Assembly: GCA_007135805.1 (NCBI GenBank)
Contig: SLID01000109.1
Location: 1 to 34,280, forward strand
DNA length: 34,280 nt
Reading direction: 5' to 3'
Origin: Candidatus Omnitrophota bacterium
GTDB taxonomy: Bacteria; Omnitrophota; Gorgyraeia; Tantalellales; Tantalellaceae
This document shows, piece after piece, positions 8,043 to 33,907 of this stretch. Made by a program: the position numbers and the translations under genes. Under the pieces are notes generated by a model. It had not been told where the DNA came from and made no database searches. It worked only from the letters and a program-made list of their open reading frames with translations. Every line of letters begins with the position of its first letter. The stretch's first letter is position 1.

Positions 8043-8576
8043 CTAGACCGATCTTTGCACCGCGTAAAAAGCCACCAGCTCTTCGTAGGTGAAAAACGGC
8101 GTCGCGGCCGGAAGAAGTATGGGAATACCGTTCTCGTTGAAAAGGCCGATATTGGGATAGTTATCCGGATTGGCGGTGAATATGGTATTGTACCTCAGGT
8201 TAAAGGCCAGGGTAAGGATATCCAGCAAGCGAATATAACTGTGTTCAGTAAGTTCTCTCCCCTCCACCCCGACGAGGAACGCTTTTTCATTTTTACGATA
8301 ATCCAAAAAATCTCTTGAAGTTACGCTTGAACGGTCAGCGATCACGATGGTTTCCGGCTTTTTGTATTCGGCGCCCGACCGTCGGGCTGCTCTCATTCTG
8401 TTATCATTGTCCCGTTCGATAGCCGCTATAAGATCGGCATCGGGAGCGGCTACGAACGAAATACCCAGACTCTCGCAGAAACTTCTTATATCGCTCATCA
8501 GAGGGTTAAGAGCCAGATGCTGATCCCTGCCGGAGGAATAGCCTTTTATCCAGTCAGTACCGAGGGCGATCCTCAC
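8043..8576 (-). other. Shared C-terminal domain (copy 1), unknown function
   Basis: Codes for residues 2524-2700 of the giant protein. It aligns by eye with residues 1546-1716 of the other long protein. Conserved points include GT-[DS]-W-[IL]-KGY, then ALNPL[ML], later YIR-x2-[DE]ILT-x-A near the middle, and a closing YE-[EK]-L-x4-Y-x-VQR. The alternating hydrophobic strands and helices suggest an alpha/beta (Rossmann-like) fold. I cannot assign a family. Confidence 0.7.
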
Positions 8577-11500
8577 CGCGCCGGAACTCCTGGCTTTGTC
8601 CCGGGCTATTTTCAGAGTGTCTGAAAATGTGATAGCTTTTTTCTTCTCCTCGGCAGGCGTGACCCCTGCCGTCATTTGACCCGGCTTTCTATCCCGCACC
8701 GCAGGTGAATCGAACTCATCGTTATCCACGACAACATCGGACATCTCCAGAGGACCCGGTACGGAACCGGCATACTCGCGATGTTTTTTTATGAAGATGT
8801 CTTCCACATAACGGCGAACCTGATCCTCGGTCCTGCCCATTTTTTCTGGATCGCGCTCCATCTGCCGGGCCAAAGAGGTTTGCTCGGTAACATCGAAATA
8901 CACGAACTGGTCCATCATGGGCCTCAGCTTCACTTCCGCGTCGTCCCTTTGAAGGAAAAGTCCTTCCACGATAACTACCGTTCCGTCATCAACATAAATA
9001 TCCTCTTTCCCCTCTCGCTCACCGGTTTCAGACACATAGGGACTGTCTATGGTATAAGTCAGATCTCCGGGACGGTGCAGTTCGTTGAGCCAGAGAGAAA
9101 GACGCTCGTGATCGAACCACCTGTAGTAATCGGAATATTCCCCTTCAAGTCCTTTTTCCCTTTCCTCTTTCTCCACCATGCACCAGTCCCCATGCAATAT
9201 CTCTACTTTACGCCCCAGCCTGTACTTCAGATACGGGGCAAGTTCTCTCTCAACAAAATAACTTTTCCCGGAAGCGTCGAATCCTTCTACACCCACAAAA
9301 AGGCGGCGGCTGCCGGTTCCCTGGGAACCTTTCCACTCTTGTTTTCTTGCCACACTTTCCGCCACCTCCTTTATCATGGCGCGGCGGGAACGTGAAAGAC
9401 CCGCGAAATATTTTTCAAACTCACTTTCCTCACTTCGCCTCTCTTCTGAAGACCGGCGAAAAACCTGATCCTTTACACTAACAGCAGAAACGCTTGTTTT
9501 CCTGAGAACGGTCACACTTGCGGGCGCGTTAAAAAGAACATATCCCGGTAAAGAGCCCTCGACGCTTAACACCGTGTCCCTGTGCCACCGGAGCGCGTCG
9601 CGAAAACGCTCTCCCACCGAAACTTCCTCATAGTTCCCCAGCATACGAAAATATTCCGCGAGACCGGTATCCTCCCCCAGAAGTATCACGGTATCCCCTT
9701 TTCTTAACAATCTGTCATCCAGCCCTGAAATATAATCAAGGGACGATGAATGCGCGAAAAGACCCGACTTATCGTCATATCCCGTTACATAGGACGACCC
9801 TTTCAAGATGAAAGACCTCCGGGGAAACCGGCCGTCTTCTTGCCGAAAAGGCATTTCAAAGGTGCCGTAAGGGGTTACATCCTGCAGCGATGTTTCCAGG
9901 TTATTTCTTACGGCTCGAGCCTCCACACCCACCTTTCCGCTCAACGTGTTAATGAATTCGCGCTGAAGCTCAGCGTGAAACCGCTCGTTGTCCGACCCTC
10001 CTGTCATGCCATGTCTGTAACCCTCTATTTGAAAGAGCGGGACATATTTAGCTGGGAAAAAATCCACCCCGGAGGCGGGATACACGGCGGCGTCCCCAAA
10101 AACGCCCCGCAGAAAAAGAACTCTCAGCATAAGATCATAAAGCTCTACCGCCCTGAGCGTCTCCCTGTATTCATTGTAGCTGATCCCTTTAAAGCCCGGC
10201 TTCCGGGCTGTAAATAAAGCGAACCCTATCCTTTCACGAAGATAACTAAAGGTCCCCAAGGGCGCCCTGGATGATGGCAGCGCCAACTCCTCGATACGTG
10301 ACGAAACCATGTCTACCGCCAGGTCAACCACGCTTTCTTTATCATTTTCGGGAAGCTCTGCCAATACCTCGTTTACCTTCAGCATGTCATTGTCGAACGC
10401 CAATACTCGCGCCGTCACATCTTTGGAAGCGTAACAATGTTCGGATGCATGGCTGTCACATTCTTTTCTGACCGGAGCTAAGGTAAAACGGCGGACCATA
10501 AGATCGAGAACCGCCGTCATAAACCTTGTCATATCTTCCCCCATCCGTCCGGATCCCGGCTGTGGGATTTTCTCGGAAATGCCCTCAAGGTATGTCTTTG
10601 ACGGTTCTTTTACTTCTCCGGCTCTCTCACCCGATAAGGTGCGGAATATCATATCCGGGGCAAGCCCTGTCGTATCGATCACAAGGTCTATCCCGTCGTA
10701 TTCTATACGCTCCATTTCCGCGGTGCGGGGATCATAAGAAAGTTTACCCAACATCTTTTTGGCGCGCTCTTTTACCCTGGTCCGCCTCTTTTCGTCTTCG
10801 GTAAACATTTCCGCGATAATGTCCGGCCCGAATTTTCCGGCAAGATCCGGTACCGTATGATACCCCTCTATTATCACGAGTTTTGTCTCAGGAAAAACGT
10901 TCCGGTCGAGCGCCATCCGGTAATACGAATCATCCGAAAAGTCATCTTCAAAACGCGTTACCTGTCGTTCTTCTATACCAAAGAGCTCCCCGGTAAGGTT
11001 AGCTGATATACTGCTTTTACCCGTCCCCGGCTGGCCGCAAATAAAAACAAGCACCGGCCTGTCATACCCTTCTTCTTCGCGCCGCTGCAACTCCCGCACT
11101 ATCCTTTCCCTTAGCTCGGGCAGCCCTTCGGGCGCCGGCACGATAATATCCCGGCCGCGAAGGGACTGTTCGTCGGTGTCAAGGGCGGATACCTCGCGCG
11201 TTACAGACGTAAAGCGGGGCAAGATAAAACCTGCCATAAACTCGACAAAAAGACCGGCGGCAAAACCTGCCGCGGGAAACCCCGAGTATATACCGAGAAC
11301 GAAAAGGCCCGTAAGCGCGGCTCCCCTGGCGCGCAGAACTTGATCTCCCCCGCCCCTTTCAAGGTCTGCGTCCAGAAAGACCAACACATCCCCCTCTTTT
11401 ATCCGGGTAAATTCAAGAACTCTTTCCTTATCCGAAAGCTCTCCGATATTTATGCGGCTTCCGTTTATTATGACTTCAGTCGTCCTGACATTAGAGTAGT

Positions 11501-14500
11501 AATTGTTCATAATGTCGAGAACAGAACTCGTCTCCGGGACCTTTACATCCTTTCCGTTCACAGAGACTTCCACATTGTTACTTGGAGTCGGAACAAACGC
11601 TTCAGGCAAAAGTTCCAATGGTTCGTCCTTGAGAAGCTCGTACCATTCCAATATCTCTTCCGCCTCTTTCTTCATGTAGACCTTTATGAGGCCGAGAGCC
11701 GTTACAATGAAATTTTCGGCCTCTTCGGGCCCCAAGGTGTCAAGGATCCCCCTTACTATGGCTTCGGGAGAAAAATTAAAAGCAAGGAACGCGTCTACCA
11801 GAAGACCCGGCGATATCTCATGCCCGTATTCTACATTGTCTATGTCTATTATGGAAACCGCATACCCCCTGGATGTCTTACGTATCACTACGTTATCCAT
11901 TTTAGGGTCATGAAAATACAGTTGTTTATCAAAAGTCTTCCAGTACCGGATATAAGCTCCCACCGACATCCTTTCCCGCGTTATCTCATCCGGCATTTCA
12001 ATAGCGGAATGAACGTATCCCTCAGAGAATATTATCCTTTGCTTACCGTCGTTGTGGGTATGACCATACAATCCACCCGCCGGGAGATGCAGACTGTAAT
12101 CGGTTTCCCTGGCTTTTATGTCTATATCCATGAGCGTTTCAGCGTACTCCATGGTATAATCGTATCCGCTGTCAGACTTTTTGACGTCTTCTTTCACCAG
12201 TTTCAGCAGAAAATTGAAAGGATAATTTCTGTCATAAAGCTCCATAGCTACCGAATAAACCTTTTTAAAACCGCCTTCTCCTATACAACGTATATGTACT
12301 CCCTTCACATCGTCCCGTGACAGATCATCCCGCATGAATATGTTGGCAAAGGCGTCATTTATGACCCTGTGGTCTTTTATTAGAGCTTCAAGTACCTCCA
12401 TATCCCGTTCACTGATATCATCCCGGTCATACCTTACCTCAAGAGCGGCCTGACGGCGCTCCTGAACCGCTTCCTCGATCTCCTCGATGGCCTTGAGCAT
12501 TTTCCTCAGATTGCGACGCAGCAACCTGCGCAGCGGCCCCTGCCGGGCGGAAGCGTCACGAAGGATGTCGCTTATTGAACGAAGTTCAGAGGTGACTTTA
12601 TTTTCCCGCCCAACGCTTTCGAGATAAGCCTCTATAAGCTCCCGTATGGCCGTCATATTAGGTTCCCACCTGACATTTACGACCACTATCCCCAGGATAC
12701 GCATAATGTCGCGTAAACAAACATCAAGCCGTCCCGCGTTGTAACTCCTTTCAGCCCGCATAAGTATGTCCGCGACATCGCTCCTCTCTCCCCGCAAAAC
12801 CGAAAGGCGCAGTTTCCTTCCCGGTGAGCCGTGACCATCCGCTCCGGTATCGGGCGCAAGCAGCCGATGGGCCGCAGCTGTCCCCGGCGCGAAACCGGGA
12901 GCGACTATCCCTAGCCGGCTTATCTCATCCCACCATTCGCCCGACAACGCAGAGAGATAACCGTAAATATACATAAGACCCTCCCATATCCCGGTATCCG
13001 CAGGCCCGGGGATAGGGTTTTCGGTATCCCCCAACGCGGCAGGACCCTTTATCCTGTCCCCGCGGCACATATCGTCCGGATAAGCCGGGACCGCAGCGTA
13101 GTAATCTCGGGCCGGATATACCCCGCGAAAAAGAAAATCTTGGGAGAGGAACGGTTTACTAGTATCTTTGCGGATGAACTGCGGAAGCTGTGTATCCACC
13201 ACCCACCACATGCCGTTAATATAAACTTCCAGAACCACATGCGCGGAAGCGGGAGTCCTGCCCCTCATTACTTCCCGGGAAAGATCATGAGGTATTTTTA
13301 TCATTCGCTCCCGTGCCTTAATGCCCGTTTTTGCCGCGAGCCGGTTCCTGATGAAATCTGTCGCGTCCGCGCACTGCCCCCTTTTTCGGGGATCATATAT
13401 CATGGCAGCCTCCCGCGCGTACCGGACAAGCACCTCAGGGGTCACGCGTAACAGGGAAGCTTCATCGGAGTCTTTGCTCTCATCCAGAGACCTGTCGCGG
13501 ACAATTCGATAGTTATTTTTCCAGCGGGTAGTGGGAATCCATGTAAAACCGCCGTCTACCGAGTACATGAAGGTGAACTCTCCCTCGAAACCTTCGGGCA
13601 AACGTACACCGAAACGGTATTTCCCGGGACGTATTTCTTCTACACGCTTCATATCCACTACCATCCATATAGGTTCGCCGCTGTCATCAGTACCATATTT
13701 TGTGTCGTGAAAATGGACCCGGCCTTTTATCTGCTGAGGGTTCCAGCTGACTTCTTCCGCCGCGTGATCGGCGTCGGCAAAAACCGTAAAACCGATCTGG
13801 GTAGAATCATCCAACGCTAAAATAGACACATTGCTCTCGGGAAAAATATCAACAGCTCCATGCCGGATCACAGGGATGAACCTTCTTTCCCTAAGGGGGA
13901 ACTCGGCCTCAAACACCGCGCCGGTCAAAGGCAGCTGTTTGTTGCTTGCCTCTATAGACCCCTTCATGCGATCCATGATCTCGTACAGAAAAGCAAGTCC
14001 GAGACCGGTACCCTCGCTTCGCTGTTCCGTCCGCCCCGCTGAGGTAATGTTGTATTTAAAAAGTTCCTGCCGGGAACTTTTTTCTTTAGCGAGAAGCCGA
14101 AGATCTATACCCTTTCCATTGTCGGAAACTCTCAGCCTGAATTTACCTTCGGATTCCACGTAACCATACTCCACCCGGATCTCTGTGACGCCTCTTTCCT
14201 TGAGCGCGTTCCGTACAAGTTCCGATACCAGATGTCGTACATACATCTCATCGAACGAGACTTTTTGCAGTTTCTCATCCGCCGGAGAGACCTCGACGCG
14301 AATATCCCTGGGGCCTATATGTTCTTTTCCGACCTTGTCTACCGTCTCGTGTATAACCTTGTTGATATCCCCGGTCACGGTCTCTGAAATACCTCTCAGG
14401 AAACGACTTGAGAACACGAGGAGTTCGTCAATACGTTTGAAACTTTCTTCCACTATGGCAACGGCCTGTTTTGCCTTTTCTTCGCCGAACTCCCGCTCCA

Positions 14501-16145
14501 TCCTGGGACCAAGATCAGAAAGCATACTGTCCCGCCTTGTCCAGAAACGAAGCCGTACCTTCTCCAGATAGCGCCGCGTCTCGTACTTGTAATCGAAAAG
14601 CTCGCCTATCCTTTTCCTGCGTCTAGCGAGATACTTTATCATCCCATGCACCACGCCTACCAGGCTGTCATATTCATCCTGTATAGCGTTCAACAATTCC
14701 AGGCGCACACTGTCATCGGCACCCTCTGACAGCGAACGGTAAAGACTGATATTCAGCCGGCTTAACTGCTGACTGATACCCAATTCGGAAAGCGGCGGAT
14801 GGTTCAGCATTATGCGTATCGCGCAATCCGCTTCGACCTGCATTTTAAAAAGCATATCTTCCACGGTAGGCACGAGGTCGGTACTATGAAGTGTCCCCAG
14901 ATAAGCTGGGCGGATCTGACGAGGGTCCGGCGCCTCACCTTTGACCTCGGAGAGCCCGGTTTTTTCCGCGGGACCTCCGCCTTCAGAGATCTCGTACATG
15001 GAAAGATACAACCCTCCCCTGGCCTGGGATATGTTCCTCGGCTCTTGCCATAACGGTGTAAGATCACTGAAGACGTGAGAAGCGCCATATTTTTGCCGGG
15101 TCTGTTCACTCGTAAAAAGCACCGCTATACGGGCGTCCGGCGGAAGTTCCCGGGCCTTTTTCTGCAGGAGACGCCTGAAATCCTGGTCATTTTTCGAACC
15201 GGCGGGAAAAGGGTAAAAAACATACACAACATCTACTTCCGACCAGCTCGTATTGAACGCGTCGGTATAAGGCAAAAACTCGACCTTTGCCCCATCGACA
15301 AGGTCCGCATCTTCGGCCTTTTCAAATACCCTGAGGGCGGCTTCGCTTACTTCACCGTCTTTTTCGCATGCCGTAACACGCATATCCGCCAAATTGGACG
15401 CCCATAGTGAAACCCTAAGGTCTCCGGCCCCAAGATCGAGCAGGTGTTTTCCGGAAAGATCACCAAGCTCTTCTTCCAACGTGGAAAAAATATCTTCAAG
15501 AACAAAGTCCGGTGTCATCATATGCACCGCCCCGTCAAGCGCTCTGCCAAGCTCAAACGCGTTCTCATCAATAAAATTCTCCACACGTTCCCTTAGGGAT
15601 ATCTCCCGCGCGGCCACTATCTCGACCTTCACATATACTTTTGAACCGTCAGACAGGGACACTTCCCAGTCAGGCGAAGTGTCGATTCGGGGGTCGGTGT
15701 AATATCGGTAATTGAAAGCGTGTACATCGTTACGGTAAACCGGCACATTGTATACCCTGCCTTCCTGAACGTAACCGCTGTTTTCTATATCCGCGCCCGC
15801 GAGAAAAGGATCCTTGGCCTTGATCAGTTCCATGTTAGCGGGCGAAATATGTTTTATCATCCCGTCCTTGATCCGAGCTACATGGTTGTTGATACTTCCC
15901 GAGGATATATCCATGTTCATGTATTTGCCTATAAGCCCGCTTATGTATCTAAACGCGGCCGAATGGCGAAAGAGATCCGATGAAAAGTCACTCACACCTT
16001 CGACGGGACGGAATGGCGACGGGACGGACAAAGCGTCCGCTACATCGGCCAAAACCTTGTCGGATCCGGAAAATACAAGACTGCTCGCAAGCAGGATGGC
16101 CACAACCTTGCCCCCCATGCCGCGCTTTGTATTATAGATAAACAT
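8043..16145 (-). CDS. Giant 2700-residue modular protein with signal-like N-terminus, enzyme and kinase-like domains and a shared C-terminal domain
   Basis: Order of parts by eye: signal-like hydrophobic segment (12-33, VLA-DVA); N-terminal domain with SLSDGSKVYVKVEI (163-176); methyltransferase-like fold with LLDLGAGD (235-242); GHKL/histidine-kinase ATPase with N-box HLVSELVRNALK (638-649), DNGKG (675-679) and GTGLGLA (712-718); beta-rich segment (about 760-880); transglutaminase-like domain with Cys925, His969, Asp984; WWDEISRLGIVAPGF linker (1071-1085); protein-kinase-like domain with GEGGFKKVYSV (1289-1299), Lys1315, HDPKMDN (1412-1418) and DIDN (1434-1437); ThiS/ubiquitin-like fold (1524-1597); hydrophobic segment (1608-1643); P-loop GQPGTGKS (1704-1711); unknown region (1870-2215); second P-loop GFDASGKS (2288-2295) resembling uridine-kinase folds; C-terminal domain 2524-2700 shared with the 1716-residue protein at 28757-33907. 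The reading frame is intact throughout. No Shine-Dalgarno precedes the ATG. Overall function is unknown. Confidence 0.85.
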   Translation of the reverse strand: MFIYNTKRGMGGKVVAILLASSLVFSGSDKVLADVADALSVPSPFRPVEGVSDFSSDLFRHSAAFRYISGLIGKYMNMDISSGSINNHVARIKDGMIKHISPANMELIKAKDPFLAGADIENSGYVQEGRVYNVPVYRNDVHAFNYRYYTDPRIDTSPDWEVSLSDGSKVYVKVEIVAAREISLRERVENFIDENAFELGRALDGAVHMMTPDFVLEDIFSTLEEELGDLSGKHLLDLGAGDLRVSLWASNLADMRVTACEKDGEVSEAALRVFEKAEDADLVDGAKVEFLPYTDAFNTSWSEVDVVYVFYPFPAGSKNDQDFRRLLQKKARELPPDARIAVLFTSEQTRQKYGASHVFSDLTPLWQEPRNISQARGGLYLSMYEISEGGGPAEKTGLSEVKGEAPDPRQIRPAYLGTLHSTDLVPTVEDMLFKMQVEADCAIRIMLNHPPLSELGISQQLSRLNISLYRSLSEGADDSVRLELLNAIQDEYDSLVGVVHGMIKYLARRRKRIGELFDYKYETRRYLEKVRLRFWTRRDSMLSDLGPRMEREFGEEKAKQAVAIVEESFKRIDELLVFSSRFLRGISETVTGDINKVIHETVDKVGKEHIGPRDIRVEVSPADEKLQKVSFDEMYVRHLVSELVRNALKERGVTEIRVEYGYVESEGKFRLRVSDNGKGIDLRLLAKEKSSRQELFKYNITSAGRTEQRSEGTGLGLAFLYEIMDRMKGSIEASNKQLPLTGAVFEAEFPLRERRFIPVIRHGAVDIFPESNVSILALDDSTQIGFTVFADADHAAEEVSWNPQQIKGRVHFHDTKYGTDDSGEPIWMVVDMKRVEEIRPGKYRFGVRLPEGFEGEFTFMYSVDGGFTWIPTTRWKNNYRIVRDRSLDESKDSDEASLLRVTPEVLVRYAREAAMIYDPRKRGQCADATDFIRNRLAAKTGIKARERMIKIPHDLSREVMRGRTPASAHVVLEVYINGMWWVVDTQLPQFIRKDTSKPFLSQDFLFRGVYPARDYYAAVPAYPDDMCRGDRIKGPAALGDTENPIPGPADTGIWEGLMYIYGYLSALSGEWWDEISRLGIVAPGFAPGTAAAHRLLAPDTGADGHGSPGRKLRLSVLRGERSDVADILMRAERSYNAGRLDVCLRDIMRILGIVVVNVRWEPNMTAIRELIEAYLESVGRENKVTSELRSISDILRDASARQGPLRRLLRRNLRKMLKAIEEIEEAVQERRQAALEVRYDRDDISERDMEVLEALIKDHRVINDAFANIFMRDDLSRDDVKGVHIRCIGEGGFKKVYSVAMELYDRNYPFNFLLKLVKEDVKKSDSGYDYTMEYAETLMDIDIKARETDYSLHLPAGGLYGHTHNDGKQRIIFSEGYVHSAIEMPDEITRERMSVGAYIRYWKTFDKQLYFHDPKMDNVVIRKTSRGYAVSIIDIDNVEYGHEISPGLLVDAFLAFNFSPEAIVRGILDTLGPEEAENFIVTALGLIKVYMKKEAEEILEWYELLKDEPLELLPEAFVPTPSNNVEVSVNGKDVKVPETSSVLDIMNNYYSNVRTTEVIINGSRINIGELSDKERVLEFTRIKEGDVLVFLDADLERGGGDQVLRARGAALTGLFVLGIYSGFPAAGFAAGLFVEFMAGFILPRFTSVTREVSALDTDEQSLRGRDIIVPAPEGLPELRERIVRELQRREEEGYDRPVLVFICGQPGTGKSSISANLTGELFGIEERQVTRFEDDFSDDSYYRMALDRNVFPETKLVIIEGYHTVPDLAGKFGPDIIAEMFTEDEKRRTRVKERAKKMLGKLSYDPRTAEMERIEYDGIDLVIDTTGLAPDMIFRTLSGERAGEVKEPSKTYLEGISEKIPQPGSGRMGEDMTRFMTAVLDLMVRRFTLAPVRKECDSHASEHCYASKDVTARVLAFDNDMLKVNEVLAELPENDKESVVDLAVDMVSSRIEELALPSSRAPLGTFSYLRERIGFALFTARKPGFKGISYNEYRETLRAVELYDLMLRVLFLRGVFGDAAVYPASGVDFFPAKYVPLFQIEGYRHGMTGGSDNERFHAELQREFINTLSGKVGVEARAVRNNLETSLQDVTPYGTFEMPFRQEDGRFPRRSFILKGSSYVTGYDDKSGLFAHSSSLDYISGLDDRLLRKGDTVILLGEDTGLAEYFRMLGNYEEVSVGERFRDALRWHRDTVLSVEGSLPGYVLFNAPASVTVLRKTSVSAVSVKDQVFRRSSEERRSEESEFEKYFAGLSRSRRAMIKEVAESVARKQEWKGSQGTGSRRLFVGVEGFDASGKSYFVERELAPYLKYRLGRKVEILHGDWCMVEKEEREKGLEGEYSDYYRWFDHERLSLWLNELHRPGDLTYTIDSPYVSETGEREGKEDIYVDDGTVVIVEGLFLQRDDAEVKLRPMMDQFVYFDVTEQTSLARQMERDPEKMGRTEDQVRRYVEDIFIKKHREYAGSVPGPLEMSDVVVDNDEFDSPAVRDRKPGQMTAGVTPAEEKKKAITFSDTLKIARDKARSSGAVRIALGTDWIKGYSSGRDQHLALNPLMSDIRSFCESLGISFVAAPDADLIAAIERDNDNRMRAARRSGAEYKKPETIVIADRSSVTSRDFLDYRKNEKAFLVGVEGRELTEHSYIRLLDILTLAFNLRYNTIFTANPDNYPNIGLFNENGIPILLPAATPFFTYEELVAFYAVQRSV

Positions 16146-16152
16146 AGTCCAA

Positions 16153-16182
16153 ATAGTATCATAGTAGTTATCATTAAGTCAA
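16153..16182 (-). promoter_or_regulatory. Possible promoter of the giant gene
   Basis: On the minus strand TTGACT (16177-16182) and TACTAT (16153-16158) are 18 nt apart. The -10 ends only about 7 nt before the ATG, so the transcript would be leaderless or nearly so. That agrees with the absence of a Shine-Dalgarno sequence. Confidence 0.4.
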
Positions 16183-16369
16183 CAAAAATTTTGATATCGC
16201 CCCTTTCGCAGTATGGCCCTGAAATCAAATGTGAGCTCTGCCCTTTTCTTCCAGATGCCCCTTGTTCTATCTCCGCAGAGAAACGGTTTGAACTTCCATC
16301 GTAAAATCTTTAAAATAAATGGTTTAGAATGATAGATAAAAAATTGACACTCGAGTCAGGTAAAAACAG

Positions 16370-16398: not shown

Positions 16399-16424
16399 GA
16401 TTATTTGTAGGTAGATGGAGTTAT

Positions 16425-16500: not shown

Positions 16501-18123
16501 GTGAGTGATTACTTATTCGACGCCATAATTTTTGACATGGACGGAGTTGTCACAAAAACCGCTCTTGTACACGCCCGGGCATGGAAAAAAACTTTCGACG
16601 AATACATGCGTATTCGGGAAAAAAAGTATGGTGAAACTTTCAAAGAATTCACCCATGAAGGGGATTATCTTCCCTATGTCGATGGCAAGCCCCGATATGA
16701 AGGAGTCAAAAGTTTTCTGGAATCCCGGGGCATCTCTATCCCCTACGGAGAAAATACAGACAGTGGCGACAAAGAGACTGTCTGCGGCTTGGGGAATAGG
16801 AAAAATGATCTTTTCAAGGAAGTTCTGGAAGATGAAGGCGTAGAACGATATGACCCAATGGTCAAGTTCATAAAGGAGGTCAGGGAGAAAGGCGTAAAAG
16901 TGGGAATAGCTTCCTCCTCCAAAAATTCCGAACTTATACTGAAAAGAGCCGGACTTCTGGACCTTTTTGAGACCAGGGTGGACGGTGTAGTATCTGAAAA
17001 GTTAGGACTTAAAGGCAAACCCGAACCTGATATTTTTGTCACCGCCGCCAGGAACGTTGGTGCCGAACCCGCCAAAACGATCGTAGTGGAGGATGCCAAT
17101 TCCGGCGTCGCGGCAGGCCGTAACGGCGGTTTCGGTCTTGTTCTGGGCCTGGCCCGCGAAGACAATGTCGATGCCCTTCTGTCCAACGGCGCTGACATAG
17201 TCATGAAAGACCTTTCCCACATGGAAATAGACTGGCTTCAAAAATGGTTCCTGAGAAAACCTCATCATCTCATGCGGGAGTGGCAGACCATAGACAACCC
17301 ATCGGACATCCAGCTCTGGGAATTCAAAAAAGATATCCCCATATTCCTCAACCCGCTATACACCAGGACAGGCAAAGAAATATTCGCGAACAGTAAGGAA
17401 ACTATCTTCTTCCTGGATTACGACGGAACACTCACCCCCATCGTCCAACACCCCCGGGACGCGGTAGTGTCCGCCGAGATGAGAGACACGGTGAAAAAGC
17501 TGGCCGAAGAATGCCGCGTTTTCATAGTAAGTGGGCGGTTCAGAGAAGATGTCCAGGACCTTTTGGGCATAAAGGAACTGCTTTACGCGGGAAGCCACGG
17601 CTTTGACATAAAAGGCGAAGGCCTTTCCATGGTGCATCCCAAAGCTGAAGAGGTGATCCCTGACGTGGAAAAGGTTCTCCAACAGCTGGATTCCCGTCTC
17701 AAGGACATAGAAGGCATCTTTATCGAGAAGAAAAAGTTCAGTGTCGCGATCCATTATCGCATGGTTGACGAAGAAAAGTACCTCGACCGGATAGAACAGG
17801 AAGTCGAAAATGCCCTTACCGAAGCCGGATCACTTCGGCTGATGCGCGGAAAAAAGGTATTCGAACTTCTTCCCGACATAGAGTGGGACAAAGGCAAAGC
17901 GATCCGGTGGATACTGGAAGCCATCGATGTCGGCTGGAAAGACGCCAACATCATATACATAGGCGATGACGTGACAGATGAGTTCGCTTTCCGCATGATC
18001 CGGACAAGAGGCGCGGGAATCCTTGTTTCAGAAGAGAAAAGACCATCAGCGGCGAGTTTTTATCTCCGTGACCCGGGGGAGGTGAGAGAACTTTTTGAAA
18101 AGTTCATCAAAGAGACCGCCTGA
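16501..18123 (+). CDS. Beta-phosphoglucomutase-like / trehalose-6-phosphate phosphatase fusion (OtsB1-like)
   Basis: 540 residues with two HAD-superfamily halves. Residues 1-245 resemble beta-phosphoglucomutase: nucleophile motif DMDGVV (12-17), GIASSSKN (motif II), KGKPEPDIF and VVEDANSGV (motifs III/IV). Residues 297-540 are a trehalose-6-phosphate phosphatase: DYDGTLTP (306-313), FIVSGR, and GDDVTDE (about 488-494). The first half would interconvert beta-glucose-1-phosphate and glucose-6-phosphate; the second would dephosphorylate trehalose-6-phosphate. The start is GTG at 16501 behind AAAGGGGTGAT. The same two domains followed by GH65 form mycobacterial OtsB1 as one chain (from memory). 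Here the GH65 part is the next, overlapping gene. No T6P synthase gene is in the window. Confidence 0.88.
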   Translation: MSDYLFDAIIFDMDGVVTKTALVHARAWKKTFDEYMRIREKKYGETFKEFTHEGDYLPYVDGKPRYEGVKSFLESRGISIPYGENTDSGDKETVCGLGNRKNDLFKEVLEDEGVERYDPMVKFIKEVREKGVKVGIASSSKNSELILKRAGLLDLFETRVDGVVSEKLGLKGKPEPDIFVTAARNVGAEPAKTIVVEDANSGVAAGRNGGFGLVLGLAREDNVDALLSNGADIVMKDLSHMEIDWLQKWFLRKPHHLMREWQTIDNPSDIQLWEFKKDIPIFLNPLYTRTGKEIFANSKETIFFLDYDGTLTPIVQHPRDAVVSAEMRDTVKKLAEECRVFIVSGRFREDVQDLLGIKELLYAGSHGFDIKGEGLSMVHPKAEEVIPDVEKVLQQLDSRLKDIEGIFIEKKKFSVAIHYRMVDEEKYLDRIEQEVENALTEAGSLRLMRGKKVFELLPDIEWDKGKAIRWILEAIDVGWKDANIIYIGDDVTDEFAFRMIRTRGAGILVSEEKRPSAASFYLRDPGEVRELFEKFIKETA

Positions 18124-20548: not shown

Positions 20549-20565
20549 ACATTTCGGAGGTGTTC

Positions 20566-23332: not shown

Positions 23333-23397
23333 ACCATAACTCTGAAAAAGCTGTAAGTGCCTTGAGCGTCTTAAGAGAATTAAAAACAAAGGATACT

Positions 23398-25899
23398 ATG
23401 TCAGCAAGTTTTTTTCCCGTCCAAGATCCAGTCCTTATATTCGCTTTACTCATGCTCATAGCTTTGCTGGCCCCTCTTTTTGCCGCGCGTATCAAGGTGC
23501 CGGGTATTGTGGGCCTTATCGTGACCGGCATAATCATAGGGCCTCACGCTCTGGGCGTCCTGGACAGGGGGTATGCCGTTGAGCTCCTGGGAACGGTGGG
23601 TCTACTTTACATAATGTTCCTCGCCGGACTCGAACTCGACCGCATACAGTTCATCCGCCACCGTGAACACACCTTGATATTCGGGTCTTTAACATTCAGC
23701 GCCCCACTCATCCTCGGAACCCTGATGGCATATTACATTCTGGGCTTCAGCTGGGCGGCCGCCATTCTGCTGGCCAGCATGTTCTCTTCTCATACTCTTA
23801 TGACATACCCCATCGCCAGCCGTCTGGGTTTATCCCGGCAGAGAGCGGTAACAACGACCATAGGCGGCACCATCCTGACAGACACGGCCGCGCTCCTGGT
23901 GCTTGCTATAATCGCGGCTTTACACACGGGTGAACCCGGCATATTTTTCTGGCCTAGACTTTTCGGCTTCATGGCGATATACGTCGCGGCCGCGGTTCTC
24001 ATATTGCCCCGGCTAGGCAAATGGTTTTTCCGCAATATCGCCACCGACGGGGTCGTCGCCTACACCGGCGTTCTCGCGGGGGTATTTATCTGCTCTTATT
24101 TCGCCCATGTGGCCGGACTCGAACCCATTATCGGCGCTTTTCTGGCGGGTCTCATATTCAACAGTCTGATACCGGAAAAAAGCGCCCTTATGAACCGTAT
24201 ACAATTCGTGGGGCATTCCCTGTTTATTCCTTTTTTCCTCATTTCCGTGGGTATGCTGGTAAATCTCTCCATGATGCTGACCGACCGAAAAACGATCATC
24301 GTCGCCGGAGTAATGGTCTTCGCCGGACTAACCACAAAATGGCTGGCTGCCTTCATAACCCAAAAAATTCTCAGGTACACGTCAGAGGAAGGTAACCTTA
24401 TATACGGTCTCAGCGTAAACCAGGCCGCGGCTACTCTCGCCGCGGTTCTCGTTGGGTACAATATCGGTATCTTCGGAGAATCCGTACTCACCGGGACAAT
24501 AATTATGATACTCGTAACCACCCTGGTCGGGTCCTGGATAACCGACCGTTACGCCCGCAAAGTCGCCCTTAAGGAGGAAGAAGAACCGTACCAAATATCC
24601 GAGACCCCTCACAGGATACTCATTCCCCTGTCAAATCCGGATACCTTTGAGGAGATAATGAATCTTGCTATGCTTCTTCGCCGGAGCAACTCGCATGAAC
24701 CCCTGTATCCCATAAAAGTGGTCCAGTCGGGTGAAAGGACCGACGAACGTATAGCCGAAGCTGAAAAACTTCTGGGTAAAGGCGTTGTGCTCGCTCTCGA
24801 AGCGGATATACCGGTAAACCCCGTGGCACGTGTGGCAATAGACAACACAAGCGGGATAGTCCAGGCTACGGTTGACCTTCGCATATCAACTATAGTGACC
24901 GGATGGCGAGGGGATGTAGTTTCATATCCTTTCGTTTTCGGTAAAACACTGGACTCTCTTATTGACAATACCACACAAATGATCTTTGTAAGCCGCTGCC
25001 TCCTTCCGGTAAACACAATGAAACGCGTCGTAATGGCTGTACCTCCCCTTATAGACCACCAGCCGGGATTCGCTACCGCCGTCAATGCTATAAAAACGCT
25101 GACACATCAGCTGGACGCTTCCATCCTTACCGTTTCGGTGCCGCCCACGATGGACAACGTCAAACAGATCGTAAAAGATACCCCTCCCAAAATACAGGAA
25201 TCGGAAGTCGAGCTTGAAAGCTGGGATCAACTTATGCCCTGGCTGGACGACAATCTGAGCGAAGATGACCTCTTGATCGTAATAAGCGTCAGAAAAGGAC
25301 GTCTTGCCTGGCAGCCCAACCTTTCACGCATACCAAGACTTTTAAACCAGCATTTTTCCGAATTCAACCATGTCATGGTATATCCGCCCGAAACTCCGTG
25401 GGGCGAAATATCTGGCTCAGGAGGGACAAAAAAGTTTCAAACGTCTTTTTTACCCCCCGACCACATATCACTGGAACTGGATGGCACCGGATTCCCTGAA
25501 GCTATCGTACGGCTTTTAAACTCGGCTTTCCCCGGGAACAAAAAGACAGCGCAGAAGATAGCCGGGATATTGAACGACATAGCGCGATCCGAGCCCATGG
25601 AACTTTCCCCGGGGGTGATACTACTGCACGCTCATGTATCCGAAATACAGACATCTACCGCTTTTCTGGGAATAAACCGGTCCGGATGGGAACTGCCTCA
25701 CTCTTCCGGACCCATCCGGGTCTTACTTATTCTGCTAAGCTCGACAGACGCCCCTCCGGAGCTTCACCTCAAAGCCCTGGCGGATCTGGTACGTCCTCTG
25801 CACCATTTCGAGGCCGCCGAACAGCTTATGAAACTGACGTCTGTTGAAGAGGTGCTTGACGTTTTTTCCGGAGACGGGTCTGAAAACACAAAAATATGA
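23398..25899 (+). CDS. CPA2 cation/proton antiporter fused to USP-like and PTS EIIA-like domains
   Basis: 833 residues. Residues 1-390 hold about 12 transmembrane helices of the Kef/CPA2 type, with the conserved GGTILTDTAAL and GLEPIIGAFLAGL segments. Residues about 405-545 and 555-690 look like two universal-stress-protein-like folds (HRILIPLSNPDTFEE and KRVVMAVPPLIDHQ starts). The last 130 residues resemble a PTS EIIA type-2 (Ntr) domain with LLHAHV in place of the usual PHAR phosphorylation site, so the His is kept. The transporter exchanges Na+ or K+ for H+; the soluble domains probably control it. I chose ATG at 23398 behind AAAGGA; an upstream TTG would add 12 residues. Confidence 0.85.
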   Translation: MSASFFPVQDPVLIFALLMLIALLAPLFAARIKVPGIVGLIVTGIIIGPHALGVLDRGYAVELLGTVGLLYIMFLAGLELDRIQFIRHREHTLIFGSLTFSAPLILGTLMAYYILGFSWAAAILLASMFSSHTLMTYPIASRLGLSRQRAVTTTIGGTILTDTAALLVLAIIAALHTGEPGIFFWPRLFGFMAIYVAAAVLILPRLGKWFFRNIATDGVVAYTGVLAGVFICSYFAHVAGLEPIIGAFLAGLIFNSLIPEKSALMNRIQFVGHSLFIPFFLISVGMLVNLSMMLTDRKTIIVAGVMVFAGLTTKWLAAFITQKILRYTSEEGNLIYGLSVNQAAATLAAVLVGYNIGIFGESVLTGTIIMILVTTLVGSWITDRYARKVALKEEEEPYQISETPHRILIPLSNPDTFEEIMNLAMLLRRSNSHEPLYPIKVVQSGERTDERIAEAEKLLGKGVVLALEADIPVNPVARVAIDNTSGIVQATVDLRISTIVTGWRGDVVSYPFVFGKTLDSLIDNTTQMIFVSRCLLPVNTMKRVVMAVPPLIDHQPGFATAVNAIKTLTHQLDASILTVSVPPTMDNVKQIVKDTPPKIQESEVELESWDQLMPWLDDNLSEDDLLIVISVRKGRLAWQPNLSRIPRLLNQHFSEFNHVMVYPPETPWGEISGSGGTKKFQTSFLPPDHISLELDGTGFPEAIVRLLNSAFPGNKKTAQKIAGILNDIARSEPMELSPGVILLHAHVSEIQTSTAFLGINRSGWELPHSSGPIRVLLILLSSTDAPPELHLKALADLVRPLHHFEAAEQLMKLTSVEEVLDVFSGDGSENTKI

Positions 25900-26009
25900 A
25901 TGCCGGGTGTTGCCCGAAATACCCGTTAACCCGAAAAACACGTCCTGTTATTTATTTCCAGGCCTTAAGCTTACCGGATGCATCTAAGACCAAAATGGTG
26001 AACTCGCCT

Positions 26010-27700: not shown

Positions 27701-27851
27701 GAGGGCTTTACACCGCGTCCCTAAATCAACGTTAGCTAGCGGTTAAAAGTTCTGCTACGCTGTTTCAGTTCACTTTATTCATAAAGCAGCGGCCTCACCG
27801 AGGAGCCGAACCCTGTTTAATCAAGATCCGGATGTAAAACACCGGAAGGCC

Positions 27852-28544: not shown

Positions 28545-28604
28545 AACCTCAAACCCTCCTCTCCGGCTATTCTGCCGGTTTCAGCATCTAAATCCCGTTA
28601 GCAT

Positions 28605-28641
28605 GGCAACATGCACCAAAGGTGTAAAAGTGCGTATCACC
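28605..28641. repeat. Degenerate copy of the dispersed hairpin element
   Basis: Contains ATGCACCAAAGG followed, after an AT-rich insertion, by GTGCGTATCACCAGA. It resembles the copies at 33991 and 34220 but the stem is weaker. It lies in the gap between the SOD gene and the 3' end of the second long gene. Confidence 0.5.
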
Positions 28642-28756
28642 AGAAGTTTACACGCTGAGATCCGTTTAAGCAAGCCGGAAAGAAGATCGGTCTCGATCAA
28701 GCGAGAAGGCAAGATCACGCTACATACGCTAAAAGAGGATATTACCAAAAAATCGA

Positions 28757-29272
28757 TTAAGCGAAACGCTGCACATCGTATATATGTTTCAGCTTTTCAT
28801 ATTCCATGGGGCTGGCGTACGGCACAATGATATATACCGGATTATCTCTTGCGGGAGGTATTATTTTCATGTTCTCGTTATCAAGCTCAGGAGTGACCCC
28901 TATTGAAAGTTTCATGGCAATAGTCAATATCTCCATTATCCGGATATAGCAGCTAAAGGACATTTCACTGCTGTCGATCCCGATAACAGTATAATTGTTA
29001 TCCCGCGCCATTTTTTCGAAACAGCTGTCCAATCCTCTCTCTACATCCGCCCCGACCAGCATTATCGCCTTAGCATCGGGAGCCATCCCTCTCTCTATTT
29101 TCTCCCTGGCGATAAGCCCCGGAAGATCTTCGTCAGCAGCCAATATGAAAGGGATGTTCCTTCTGCCGCAATAATTGGCTATGGCTGTTAAAAGAGGGTT
29201 CAGTGCTTCATATTGAAGATGCGCCCCCTTTTCATATCCTTTTAACCAGCTCGTTCCGACTGCTATGATGTT
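28757..29272 (-). other. Shared C-terminal domain (copy 2), unknown function
   Basis: Codes for residues 1546-1716. Matches to copy 1 (8043-8576) include GTSWLKGY against GTDWIKGY, EALNPLL against LALNPLM, CYIRIMEILTIAMKL against SYIRLLDILTLAFNL, and the C-terminal YDVQRFA against YAVQRSV. Both copies sit at the very end of their protein. Confidence 0.7.
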
Positions 29273-32200
29273 GGAGCTTGCCAATTCACCGGCAGGACCT
29301 GTGATCACGGAAAATTTCGCCTGTATGTATCCCATCGTTGTCCTGAAATCTTGAGCGTGCGCAACTTCCCTGTCAGAACTTATGGCCTTTTCCTCGGCGG
29401 GAAAAGGTAGAGATTTCGTGTGCTCCCCGCCGGAGATCTGTGTACCTGCGCCGGGAATGCTCGGCTCCGTCTCTACCCTTTCTTTGTCGTGCTCAGCGTC
29501 GCCGCGACCTTTATCTAAAACCTTCGCCGCCTCTGTCGATGCCGGTAATTTCAAGACAAACTTTGTTCCCTTGCCCTCTTTTGAGATCACTTCAATACTT
29601 CCGCCATGATCGCGGACAGTGTGCCAGGACTCTGCCGAGCCCAATCCTGTCCCGTCCGGTTTGGTGGTGAAATTCAATTCGGCAAAACCGGGCCTGCCGT
29701 CACGCCCTGGCTCCAAAACCCGCGGGCTTATGCCGGGACCGTTGTCAGCTATGGTAACGACTGCGTCACTGCCTTCTCTTTCCAAAGAAATGACGATCCG
29801 GTTCTCCTCTGTCTCCCCGGACGCCTGTTCCGCGTTCTTAAGCATATTGGAAATGGAGTTAAGTAAGGATATCTTATCTATATCAACTACTATCGTCTCG
29901 TCTTGGCTTGTCTTCTTGAAAAAAGCAACATTTGAGTTAGAATGAAAAATCTTATCGTTAATTTCCTCGATCAGAACTGCAAGGTCATATTCCTGTTTTT
30001 CCGTTTCACCCCGCAAAAATCTCAACCTGTTTTCAAGTATCGCTGTTATCGCCGAGATATATCCGGCCGCTTCCTCCAGGATCTCGTCCACTTCAGCACT
30101 GTCTTCCGCTGTAAAAAGTTTCTTTTTATCCTGCCATTCAGACAATACAGGGGAAAGAAGTTGGGCCATCCCACGGCAATCCTCTAGTAGTGTCCTGAGT
30201 TCAGACTCCCATTTCATAGCCTGCCCCGTTGTCGGGTCTTTTTCGCGGCTTGTCTTACTAACATCCTTTATCAACGCGTCTATCCTGTCGGAAAACCTGA
30301 CGCTTTCGCGGAATATCGGCCCGGTATCGACCCTTGCTCCGGTGATAATATCAACCACTCCCATCCCACCGACTATCCCCTGAAGATATCCCGCCGGGTC
30401 AGTAAATGCCCCGTGGCTTAAACTCCTTACAGCTATGGCCGCCCTTTCACCAAATTCGCGATCATAGGGTTTCTCGGCAGTAACAACGCTCATCATGCTT
30501 TCCGCGCCCTGCCCTGCGGTCTCTCTTTCCCACAAATACCGTACCGATATCTTACCGAATCCGGCTTCTTCAAGATTTTTCTTCCACTCATCGTGCGACC
30601 ACACCCTTTGATCGGGAGATACGAGCGAGGTTCTCCCCGGCACCACTATCCCGTCTTTATTCAAAATATATGGATGCGCGTTGCTCACAAGAAAAAGTAC
30701 GTTCCCGCCCGGGGACAGAATCTCGAAACAATCCTTCAAGGCCCTCTTTCTGGACTTCTCGGACAAAAATTCCCAGAAAAGACCCGCGGTCACGGCACCG
30801 AAACCTTTCCCAACCCTTTTTATTCCGGTCACATCGCTTTCCAGAAATATCACTTCATGGCCTCTCTCACGGGAGAGTTTTCGGGCCATATCTATGGCTG
30901 CGGGATTTTTATCTATCCCGGTGATCTCTAAAGCTCCGGCACCTCGGGCCCAGCACGCCATCGGCCCAAGTTGTGTTCCAAGGTCCAGGACTCTTTTTTC
31001 TCTTACAATGTCCTCATATTCGCGGAGCTTGTCCTCATATTCCTTTATGGTAGAATCAAAAATGCCCTCCGCCACTATATTTTCCAGCATTTGCCGGGAT
31101 AAAGAAGGGCTTTTTCTTTTACCCTGATCATGGCCGGGATAACCGGGGATCCTCCCGTATATCCTCATATCCGGGCCCTTGTCCGGAGACATGAATATAT
31201 GTTCTCCCAAAGAAGACATCCCCGGTATACCAGGCAGGGAATATCCCCTGGGAATAATACCTAGACGCTGCTGGTCCTCCCACCATTTAAGCATAAGCCC
31301 CGAAACATCTCGGCAAAACGAAAAGACAGCGACAGCGCCTGAAAACAAAACTTTCATCACTCCTTTGCCGCGAAAAGCGCTCATATGGCCTTTCGCGGAG
31401 CCAGCTGGAGAGATCTTCCCTCTATCCGTCTGCATTTCCATTCCCGACAAGCGTCCGGGAGCATGGATCCCGGCAACTTCCCGAAACTCAATTAGATCAG
31501 AGTCAGATTGCCGGGAAGAAGATATCTTATCAGCAATAACTTCTATCTCCACAAGCCATTCATCACGACAGACACCGGCATGAAGATACACAGCAGGAGG
31601 CGCGTGAGGGAACGATGCCTCAACTATGGCCCTCACTTTAAGATAATCTTCGGGATTCTTTACATATATCCTGATCTGTGTAACATCTTTAAGCCCGGCT
31701 CCTCCCTGTTCAAGAACAAGAGATATATTCTCGATTGTGGTCAAGGTCTGTTTTTCAACATCACCTTTGTGAACTACATGAGGGCCTTTTACGGAAGCTG
31801 TACCGGAAATATATATCCTTGTATGGCCATCTCTGATAACGGCCATTCCCCTTGAAAAAAGCGGCGGTTTTGATGTTCTGTGGACACCTTTTTTAAGCAC
31901 ATTTTCCTTGTCATACTCGTGGGCATTCGTGGACTCGGGGTTTTCCAGGGGCTTGAATTGTACCGGAACCTCCTCTCCCCGGATGGCGAGACATTCCAGA
32001 AGCATCGATCCGTCTGACATCCCTATACCAGTGGATGCGGGATACCACCCTCTTCCCCTCATCCCCTGTTCGGTAAAGAAAACGTCCCTTCCGTCATTGA
32101 GCCTCTGATACCTTTCGCTGAAATAAAGATAATTACCCGTTATATCGTTCTGGTAAAGCCATATTCTTTTAACGTTTTCCGCGAAATCAAATCCGGCCCC

Positions 32201-33907
32201 TTCAAGCAAGATCCTGGCCTCACGGAAAGCTCTCTGGATCTGCTTATAGGGATCTCGATCCCACCACTTGGGCCTGATACCGGCTAAGTAACCCTCTTTG
32301 ACACCCCTCTTTTCAACAACGGTAAGATTTTTGTTTTTCCGGATTATCTTGGCCTCAGGATCGGTCTCCGCCACTGTCTCTACCGCTATCGCTCCCCCCA
32401 GCGGGGGCTGGTACACAAAACTGGTGGCCGGGATAGTCCCGTAATATGATTCCAATCTTTTCCTGATCTCGTTTTCCCGTTGGCGGCTTCCCACAAAAAC
32501 GACCTGTTTCACGACCTGATCTTTTTGCATACCGCTATCCCCCAGCAATCGATCCATCTCTGCGTCCGTAATATCGTAGGAGCTTAAAGTAAAGCTGCCC
32601 CTTACCGTCCCGTCATTGCTCCGGATAGATGTCGCCCCTTCCGGGGAAGTTCTCTCCGGAGAAGGACGCGTTTTATGATAAACAGATTCGCGGAAAGTTC
32701 CATCCGCCACCTTGCGTCTGAAAGTGTATGTAAAAGGGTTCTTGTAACCGTCGAGCTGGGCCCTGGCCATATCTTCATCATTGAACTCGATGACCCTGAC
32801 TTTGGATATTAGTAGACTTTCAAGGTATGTGGGATCATTTTTCTCGAAAAGATCCTTGTGCCGTTCGGCTGTCTTTTTTGTCACCAACACTACATCGACA
32901 TATTCCAGAGGTACTGTTTCGGCGATAAAAGGATAATTGAACCCAATGTCTTCCACTTTCTCTATTCCGGCCGCGCCTCGCCGGGCCATCTCATTAAAAA
33001 CGCGGCTATTTATACCTACTATCACCGCGTCATCTTCGTTGAAATGTCCATATATGTTAGCTTCGTCCAGGTTACCAAGATAACTTCTTGCGTTTGAGGC
33101 TTCACGCCCGGGGTCATACATATATCCCGAGTGCCTTAAGAAAGAAAATCCCCCCCTCCGGCCTTCCTTTCCGGGCTTTATACCCATGAATAACATTCCC
33201 TCTCCGGCACGTTTTTCATGTAACCGGATACCCTTGCCTGAGGCGGATGTTACCCTCTTTTTCCGGGCCTCAAGGGACATCTCCCGCCGGAACACCTTCT
33301 CCCCTACGGATGATATATAATGCGCGTGGGGGGAAAGCAAATTCTCGATGTCTACTATGATCTTTGTCCCATCCGGAAGTTTAAACTCATTAGCCGGGGC
33401 TTTGCTATCCGTGTCAACGCTTATGGTTACCCTGAACGCGGTCTCTCCATAAAGATCAAAAGATACAAGAAAAGAAGTGACTTCTCCTTTTTCCCTGATC
33501 TCTTCAATACTGCTTACGCCTAACTCTTCAAACAGTCCACTTTCATCACCGGCTGCGGTAAAAATATGTTTTTTAACGAGATCCCGGAGTATAGCTGACG
33601 GCCTTTCAAGATTATACTCCCTGGCAAATCCCAGCATCTCTCCTGCAAGATAGATGATATCCAGCAACACCCACCTTTTTCGAAGCTCATCTCTCATATC
33701 ATCTGTAACAATATCGAAAGTCCCGTCAGGCATTTGGATTATTCTGCAAGGAGGATTACTAGCGAGAGGAGGAGCAAGTGTCGCCCTTTCTTGAACCCTG
33801 TAAGTGTGTAAAGCTCTGCCGTAAGCAATATCGTTAGCCATAAAAAGGCAAACTACCGCGACCGATACAGCCTTGACAAGAAAACTGTGTAGGGTTCGTA
33901 CACGCAT
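28757..33907 (-). CDS. 1716-residue modular protein with chorismatase/RidA-like, methyltransferase, GHKL and shared C-terminal domains
   Basis: Order by eye: signal-like segment (8-31, AYG-RAL); N-terminal domain with RIIQMPDGTF (55-64) and FKLPDGTKIIVDIENL (175-190); unassigned region (200-400); chorismatase/FkbO-like region (about 465-790) with YFSERYQRL, GWYPASTGIGM (620-630) and a RidA-type end (RIYISGTASV at 697-706, VCRDEWLVEIEV at 779-790); WWEDQQRLGIIPRGY linker (875-889); class I methyltransferase with VLDLGTQLG (973-981); GHKL ATPase with N-box NSISNMLKNAEQ (1350-1361), DNGPGIS (1388-1394) and GTGLGSA (1419-1425); C-terminal domain 1546-1716 shared with the 2700-residue protein. A possible DHp-like helix includes SLSHG (1162-1166). 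No Shine-Dalgarno precedes the ATG. The frame is intact. The overall role is unknown. Confidence 0.85.
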   Translation of the reverse strand: MRVRTLHSFLVKAVSVAVVCLFMANDIAYGRALHTYRVQERATLAPPLASNPPCRIIQMPDGTFDIVTDDMRDELRKRWVLLDIIYLAGEMLGFAREYNLERPSAILRDLVKKHIFTAAGDESGLFEELGVSSIEEIREKGEVTSFLVSFDLYGETAFRVTISVDTDSKAPANEFKLPDGTKIIVDIENLLSPHAHYISSVGEKVFRREMSLEARKKRVTSASGKGIRLHEKRAGEGMLFMGIKPGKEGRRGGFSFLRHSGYMYDPGREASNARSYLGNLDEANIYGHFNEDDAVIVGINSRVFNEMARRGAAGIEKVEDIGFNYPFIAETVPLEYVDVVLVTKKTAERHKDLFEKNDPTYLESLLISKVRVIEFNDEDMARAQLDGYKNPFTYTFRRKVADGTFRESVYHKTRPSPERTSPEGATSIRSNDGTVRGSFTLSSYDITDAEMDRLLGDSGMQKDQVVKQVVFVGSRQRENEIRKRLESYYGTIPATSFVYQPPLGGAIAVETVAETDPEAKIIRKNKNLTVVEKRGVKEGYLAGIRPKWWDRDPYKQIQRAFREARILLEGAGFDFAENVKRIWLYQNDITGNYLYFSERYQRLNDGRDVFFTEQGMRGRGWYPASTGIGMSDGSMLLECLAIRGEEVPVQFKPLENPESTNAHEYDKENVLKKGVHRTSKPPLFSRGMAVIRDGHTRIYISGTASVKGPHVVHKGDVEKQTLTTIENISLVLEQGGAGLKDVTQIRIYVKNPEDYLKVRAIVEASFPHAPPAVYLHAGVCRDEWLVEIEVIADKISSSRQSDSDLIEFREVAGIHAPGRLSGMEMQTDRGKISPAGSAKGHMSAFRGKGVMKVLFSGAVAVFSFCRDVSGLMLKWWEDQQRLGIIPRGYSLPGIPGMSSLGEHIFMSPDKGPDMRIYGRIPGYPGHDQGKRKSPSLSRQMLENIVAEGIFDSTIKEYEDKLREYEDIVREKRVLDLGTQLGPMACWARGAGALEITGIDKNPAAIDMARKLSRERGHEVIFLESDVTGIKRVGKGFGAVTAGLFWEFLSEKSRKRALKDCFEILSPGGNVLFLVSNAHPYILNKDGIVVPGRTSLVSPDQRVWSHDEWKKNLEEAGFGKISVRYLWERETAGQGAESMMSVVTAEKPYDREFGERAAIAVRSLSHGAFTDPAGYLQGIVGGMGVVDIITGARVDTGPIFRESVRFSDRIDALIKDVSKTSREKDPTTGQAMKWESELRTLLEDCRGMAQLLSPVLSEWQDKKKLFTAEDSAEVDEILEEAAGYISAITAILENRLRFLRGETEKQEYDLAVLIEEINDKIFHSNSNVAFFKKTSQDETIVVDIDKISLLNSISNMLKNAEQASGETEENRIVISLEREGSDAVVTIADNGPGISPRVLEPGRDGRPGFAELNFTTKPDGTGLGSAESWHTVRDHGGSIEVISKEGKGTKFVLKLPASTEAAKVLDKGRGDAEHDKERVETEPSIPGAGTQISGGEHTKSLPFPAEEKAISSDREVAHAQDFRTTMGYIQAKFSVITGPAGELASSNIIAVGTSWLKGYEKGAHLQYEALNPLLTAIANYCGRRNIPFILAADEDLPGLIAREKIERGMAPDAKAIMLVGADVERGLDSCFEKMARDNNYTVIGIDSSEMSFSCYIRIMEILTIAMKLSIGVTPELDNENMKIIPPARDNPVYIIVPYASPMEYEKLKHIYDVQRFA

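Follow-up and report, generated by a model that had tools for sequence, protein, structure and literature searches.

Giant open reading frames (ORFs) of more than 20 kb are found across Omnitrophota and include that of a 39,678-amino-acid (aa) protein of Ca. Velamenicoccus archaeovorus; in the passages that treat them, Seymour et al. (2023, PMC10066038) term them poorly conserved and their role poorly understood, and propose adhesion or predation. A similar view of giant ORFs in related lineages was given in a 2025 paper (PMC12057145). The window analysed here, the whole stretch of 34,280 nucleotides from a Candidatus Omnitrophota bacterium (contig SLID01000109.1), encodes two very long proteins, P1 and P2. 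By their sequence they belong to a large paralogous family, confined to Omnitrophota as far as searched, in which constant end domains (bookends) enclose exchanged middles. P1, P2 and their relatives resemble the giants of Seymour et al., as these are treated in the same passages, in phylum, in their very long single ORFs and in a possible role in cell-cell interaction. There, the giants are given few annotated domains and often many transmembrane (TM) helices, and those passages make no mention of shared bookends or exchanged middles. The bookended proteins, in contrast, are mostly 0.7-7 kaa long, for the most part lack internal TM segments and contain many recognisable enzymes. No paper describing shared end domains was found in a literature search, preprints being outside its scope.

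In type IX secretion, with its C-terminal domain (CTD), and in PEP-CTERM sorting, enzymes that are otherwise unrelated carry a signal peptide and share a constant sorting region at the C-terminus. Unlike these regions, the constant C-terminal region of the bookended proteins is a predicted alpha/beta domain of about 200 aa that ends in Ala and has no terminal TM helix. The immunoglobulin-like CTD was not recognised (the model is alpha/beta, and no CTD family occurs among the Pfam matches of 65 members), and neither was the PEP-CTERM motif with TM helix and basic tail, the tails ending in a soluble helix with the terminal Ala. Polymorphic toxin systems (PMC3482391) are alike in combining a constant trafficking part with a variable effector, in spread by recombination and in several paralogues per genome; they are defined by a variable C-terminal toxin and a neighbouring immunity gene. 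In the bookended family, both ends are constant, the middle is variable and the cargo consists mainly of metabolic and processing enzymes. A variable C-terminal toxin was not found, the C-terminus being the constant part; of the downstream genes within the window, the one behind P2 encodes a superoxide dismutase and the one directly behind P1 a 445-aa protein for which Pfam gave no match (6501-7838, minus strand). FkbO/Hyg5 chorismatases, GHKL ATPases and class I methyltransferases match single modules inside P1 and P2. In P1 and P2 these modules form part of a protein that appears to be exported, and other giants contain them in a different order. No His box of a sensor histidine kinase was recognisable by eye upstream of the GHKL domain in P1 or P2.

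A first-pass annotation of the window had described P1 and P2 as sharing a signal-like start, an N-terminal motif and the C-terminal segment around unrelated modules. Both frames were recovered at the coordinates given then. The C-terminal segments align significantly (BLASTP, 32% identity over 174 aa, E=1.3e-19), other genomes carry both ends, and the signal-like start was detected in both proteins with a profile of the N-terminal tag (N-tag; E=8.8e-7 for P1, E=2.7e-17 for P2). Similarity between the two N-terminal regions is too weak for BLASTP. The motif noted there (DGSKVYVKVEI in P1, DGTKIIVDIEN in P2; DGxKxxVxxE) falls inside the N-domain profile match of P1 and belongs to a genuine N-domain; a profile made without P1 recovers P1 at E=1e-15. 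The following features were assigned to P1:

8043..16145, minus strand: P1, bookended giant protein of 2700 aa; stop-free open frame
16047..16145, minus strand: Sec-type signal peptide, aa 1-33, predicted cleavage after VLA; sequence and own-genome N-tag profile
16011..16031, minus strand: post-signal motif LSVPSPF, aa 39-45, counterpart of TLAPPL/TLAxPS; alignment of 39 sequences
15624..15971, minus strand: N-domain, class I; leave-one-out profile
15111..15464, minus strand: methyltransferase-like region, aa 228-345, motif I LLDLGAGD at aa 235; hhalign to the methyltransferase of P2 type
13890..14252, minus strand: GHKL ATPase, aa 632-752; PF02518 and motif positions
13190..13380, minus strand: transglutaminase-like region, Cys at aa ~925, His ~969, Asp ~984; triad pattern
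12837..12989, minus strand: WW linker, aa 1053-1103; BLASTP against P2
10932..11078, minus strand: P-loop domain, aa 1690-1738, Walker A GQPGTGKS; PF13238/PF06414, E=1e-3
8787..9317, minus strand: uridine kinase/PRK-like domain, aa 2277-2453, Walker A GFDASGKS; PRK07667, E=1.6e-12; PDB 1rz3, E=2e-10
8046..8645, minus strand: C-terminal bookend domain; profile E=1.5e-71, broader own-genome profile E=7.3e-46

The features of P2, some supported by AlphaFold2 models (given with predicted local distance difference, pLDDT, and template modelling, pTM, scores), are:

28757..33907, minus strand: P2, bookended giant protein of 1716 aa; intact frame
33818..33907, minus strand: signal peptide, aa 1-30, cleavage after AYG; N-tag profile
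33764..33781, minus strand: post-signal motif TLAPPL, aa 43-48; alignment of 39 sequences
33347..33685, minus strand: N-domain, class I; profile, model pLDDT 81
31532..32239, minus strand: chorismatase (FkbO/Hyg5-RidA-like) module, aa 557-792; TIGR04444, PF01042 and PDB 5ag3 (E=3e-19)
31169..31348, minus strand: WW linker, aa 854-913; BLASTP against P1
30704..30991, minus strand: methyltransferase, aa 973-1068; PF13649
29540..29878, minus strand: GHKL ATPase, aa 1344-1456; PF02518
28760..29368, minus strand: C-terminal bookend domain; profile E=3e-51, model pLDDT 94, pTM 0.91

The middles of P1 and P2 have several modules in common. The GHKL ATPase was confirmed in both (PF02518, E=1.1e-15 in each; direct P1-P2 BLASTP, E=1e-9), and N box, DNGxG and GTGLGL boxes are all present in P1. 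The proposed methyltransferase fold was likewise found in both, by Pfam in P2 (E=1.7e-11) and by profile comparison alone in P1 (hhalign probability 91%, P=9e-7; control segments of P1, 0.1-0.4%). The WW-x4-RLGI linker is common to the two proteins (E=7e-5) and was rejected as a family trait, as only P1 and P2 have it among all giants examined. Conserved order of the common modules was also rejected: P1 reads N-domain, methyltransferase, GHKL, transglutaminase-like region, WW linker, further modules, C-domain, and P2 reads N-domain, chorismatase, WW linker, methyltransferase, GHKL, C-domain, with methyltransferase and ATPase near the N-terminus in P1 and near the C-terminus in P2. As to the modules called in one protein only, the chorismatase/RidA-like module of P2 was supported by TIGR04444 (E=6e-29; at 101 bits, below the curated cut-off of 325, and with the C-terminal two thirds alone aligning) and PF01042 (E=8e-19), and the P-loop/uridine-kinase-like region of P1 at E~1e-12. 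The transglutaminase-like call in P1 was borne out by the Cys-His-Asp triad and a weak match (E=0.003) to the Pfam-supported transglutaminase of a sister giant (C67), and was left without a match by the Pfam scan; the kinase-like and ubiquitin-like calls in P1 are supported at motif level only. Modules of P2 recur in other giants (chorismatase in L081; methyltransferase in L103 and L095; ATPase in L066, L070 and L078).

Exchange of the middle between constant ends is seen in P2 and its closest paralogue (L010, 5004 aa). Residues 5-194 match at 33% identity (E=4e-27) and the last 205 residues at 54% (E=3e-63), and BLASTP gave no match anywhere in the intervening 1300 and 4600 residues. In an all-vs-all comparison of 72 C-domain proteins, a given protein had matches to as many as 15 others in its first ~200 residues, to as many as 62 in its last ~250, and usually to 0-4 in its middle. 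Among 1408 tail-sharing protein pairs, 135 also share the N-terminal part and 43 any middle segment (BLASTP). As an observation apart, four tandem C-domain giants with homologous middles lie on one contig (L082; G236 contig 24), two of them with segments in exchanged order.

The search that had been set beforehand, with end profiles against Omnitrophota genomes and the middles tabulated, gave many copies with mostly unrelated middles made up of diverse enzymes. About 100 copies of the C-domain were found in 32 of 334 genomes, concentrated in a few families of one class; they are nearly always terminal in large ORFs that start with the same kind of signal peptide. An iterated tail profile detected 85 tails and none of 291 decoys. 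The contig titles of the related loci are those of Candidatus Omnitrophota metagenome-assembled genomes (MAGs). A pattern scan with a 5-row alignment, which covered 84,980 species but reaches close relatives only, returned four loci, all from Ca. Omnitrophota. The genome of the window itself (an assembly of 1.63 Mb, ~90% complete) has 14 C-domain copies by the broader profile, in ORFs of 728-5004 aa totalling ~84 kb, or ~5% of the assembly; a search with the C-terminal segment itself had also detected further sites there. Because MAG contigs are short, giant lengths are lower bounds in places. The earlier proposal of a modular family with interchangeable parts is thus supported; its second half, a signalling or interaction system, remains unproven, the middles holding mainly metabolic and processing enzymes and not a signalling set.

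The N-terminal end consists of a signal peptide (basic start, hydrophobic core, A-x-A-like site; consensus ...LDIAYA), the LAPPS/TLAxPS motif ~15 residues behind it, with Leu invariant in 39 aligned sequences, and an N-domain that is usual but not universal in the family. A signal peptide is visible in ~53 of the 57 tail-bearing ORFs with readable start. In the fetched loci, the N-tag profile matches 66 of 95 ORFs of at least 1000 aa versus 5 of 1839 ORFs below 500 aa. Of 145 Omnitrophota genomes, 97 have giants with the signal-peptide part of the tag (FKxIxxxLVxxFLxxDIAWA), and 109 of the 150 matches listed lie in frames of at least 1000 aa; what the N-tag matches in distant classes is mainly the signal peptide. 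N-domains fall into two classes with 22 and 19 members. Mapped on the C-domain tree, N-class changes once (support 98; shuffled mean 13.9, 0/500 shuffles as good), and therefore the two ends travel together. Giants of other classes (L162, L165, L166, L178, L093) share a different motif within their N-terminal ~100 aa, IPxxLGxIxE...VIHIQDAHxNxxAQ, behind a similar signal peptide.

Neither end domain has a convincing Pfam family or solved fold match. Pfam gave only scattered one- or two-member matches for the N-domain and, in 65 members, for the C-domain, with no consistent family. A fold search with the moderate N-domain model gave no significant structure match; for the C-domain, predicted as an alpha/beta sandwich, the best PDB hit (flavodoxin-like, E=2e-3, template modelling score 0.32) was unconvincing, and the best score against a viral structure library was below 0.4. 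The terminal residue is Ala in 78 of 85 tails (Ala-Ala in 39), versus 33 of 200 other ORFs. Some N-tagged proteins lack the main C-domain (L144, L156, L160; L053:12970-15120, L057:786-2546; L147, L151) and close with one of at least two further recurrent tails, ..RIIETIGSLTGIV..LYNAARAFAEAA and ..NYIQDIVTNAARLVKTILKALP..VLWAA, whose last residues are likewise Ala-Ala or Ala.

In a Pfam scan of ~54 giants, ~36 had at least one domain. The cargo includes malic enzyme, glutamate racemase, nucleoside diphosphate kinase, DegT aminotransferase, arginine dihydrolase/LOR-SDH, mannitol dehydrogenase and CofD; MutS ATPase, methyltransferases, M20 peptidase, alpha/beta hydrolase, GH130 and HEAT repeats were also found. 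Combinations occur, such as radical S-adenosylmethionine (SAM)/SPASM with B12-binding domains and glycosyltransferases, or 5-formyltetrahydrofolate cyclo-ligase with two protein kinases, and some giants carry cargo of extracellular type (NAGPA, GH2, GH72-like, transglutaminase). Catalytic residues are intact where checked (malic enzyme, glutamate racemase, radical SAM CxxxCxxC, Walker A, metallophosphatase, transglutaminase, nucleoside diphosphate kinase His).

These results are best explained, with moderate confidence, by a lineage-specific family of multi-enzyme proteins that are bookended, exported and probably active at or beyond the surface of the producer, with the matched ends as frame and the interior as cargo. 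The N- and C-ends would serve export, folding and localisation, and the interior, one to several enzyme or repeat modules, would be cargo swapped by recombination. The proteins would exit the cytoplasm and act at or past the cell surface, the likeliest targets being partner or prey cells, their polymers and metabolites. Signal-peptide polarity, the scarcity of internal TM segments (50 of 75 middles have no TM-like segment) and the halved cysteine content (0.59% in middles versus 1.06% in the remaining soluble ORFs at these loci, p=3e-9) together point to export from the cytoplasm. The data show the family itself, its constant ends and exchanged middles, the joint inheritance of the ends and, where checked, the intact catalytic residues; export is inferred, and site of action and a role of the C-domain in secretion or attachment are conjectural.

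Several results weigh against this reading. Many cargo enzymes need cytoplasmic cofactors (NAD, ATP, SAM, B12, iron-sulfur clusters), which is odd outside any cytoplasm; such cargo would therefore act where the cofactors exist, in the cytoplasm of another cell or, contrary to the export evidence, in that of the producer. Secretin (PF00263) was not found in the own, 90% complete genome, control genomes being positive, so that an exit route by type II secretion, Tad or type IV pili is unsupported here. No partner or target was found, and no conserved transporter gene lies beside the giants within the window. Four tail-bearing ORFs (L066, L090, L100, L101) have no signal peptide; one of them, a 2641-aa frame (L101:1949-9871, minus strand), starts with a ParA-like ATPase and has the C-domain near its end. 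Since most of the proteins compared had been retrieved by their C-domain, the share of N-tagged proteins that have it is biased upward. In an N-selected set, mostly of related families, 8 of 13 N-tagged proteins have the C-domain, and in other families or classes ~1 of 20, several of these proteins being incomplete. The full architecture was rejected as a phylum-wide trait: most giants beyond the related families have no LAPPS motif and nearly all have no C-domain, with one exception (L173, family f10).

Signal peptide and cysteine depletion would also suit resident envelope proteins, exported and then kept in the periplasm or at the surface of the producer, which would use the modules to feed itself, to build its envelope or as scaffolding and not against partner cells. 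In agreement with this, the cargo includes several hydrolases and sugar enzymes, and Omnitrophota are described as biosynthetically near-complete and not all thought host-dependent in the passages of PMC10066038 on this point. NAD-, ATP- and SAM-dependent as well as iron-sulfur enzymes with intact active sites, however, have no obvious periplasmic substrates, and this alternative is considered somewhat unlikely. The reading of exported proteins that act at or beyond the surface has a bolder form, in which a phylum-specific delivery system with matched new end domains would bring complete, active enzymes of housekeeping type, from central metabolism and from amino-acid, nucleic-acid and cofactor chemistry, into partner or prey cells. 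These cells would be reprogrammed by metabolic enzymes instead of toxins, and the system would gain new cargo by interior exchange; this is put forward as speculative and rather doubtful.

The mostly cytoplasmic type of the cargo would be explained directly if the N-terminal hydrophobic segment were an anchor and the enzymes worked inside the producer as membrane-tethered proteins. In one genome (G023), the only malic enzyme found is giant-borne, in keeping with this. Against it, the giant-borne glutamate racemase of another genome, G007 (197.9 bits versus the curated NCBIfam cut-off of 146.65), coexists with a free-standing cytoplasmic copy. Basic residues before the hydrophobic stretch and an A-x-A-like site (DIAYA, DIAWA) after it have the polarity of an exported signal, and the interiors are depleted in cysteine, which makes tethering improbable. 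That the interiors are drifting fusions or pseudo-enzymes, decaying captures serving at most as inert mass or adhesive surface, is very improbable: about one third of the scanned middles have no recognisable Pfam domain and several matches are partial or weak, but catalytic residues are kept across wide divergence, the racemase scores above the curated equivalog cut-off, and frames stay open up to 5004 aa in the own genome and longer in relatives.

The other genes of the window (trehalose phosphatase, GH65, CBS, DJ-1, Na/H exchanger, SQS_PSY, LytB and superoxide dismutase) show no link to the giants. Among them, a HAD/phosphoglucomutase-like domain is fused to trehalose-phosphatase at 16501-20548 (plus strand), adjoining the GH65 phosphorylase, and the Na/H exchanger is fused to an EIIA domain (23362-25899).

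The common start and end domains provide a handle by which one large class of Omnitrophota giant ORFs can be recognised, counted and tested, and in this class the ends evolve jointly and the cargo between them changes. Should export hold true, the bookended proteins would constitute a modular secretion family with metabolic cargo, and the interaction of ultra-small, possibly predatory bacteria with other cells would become testable.
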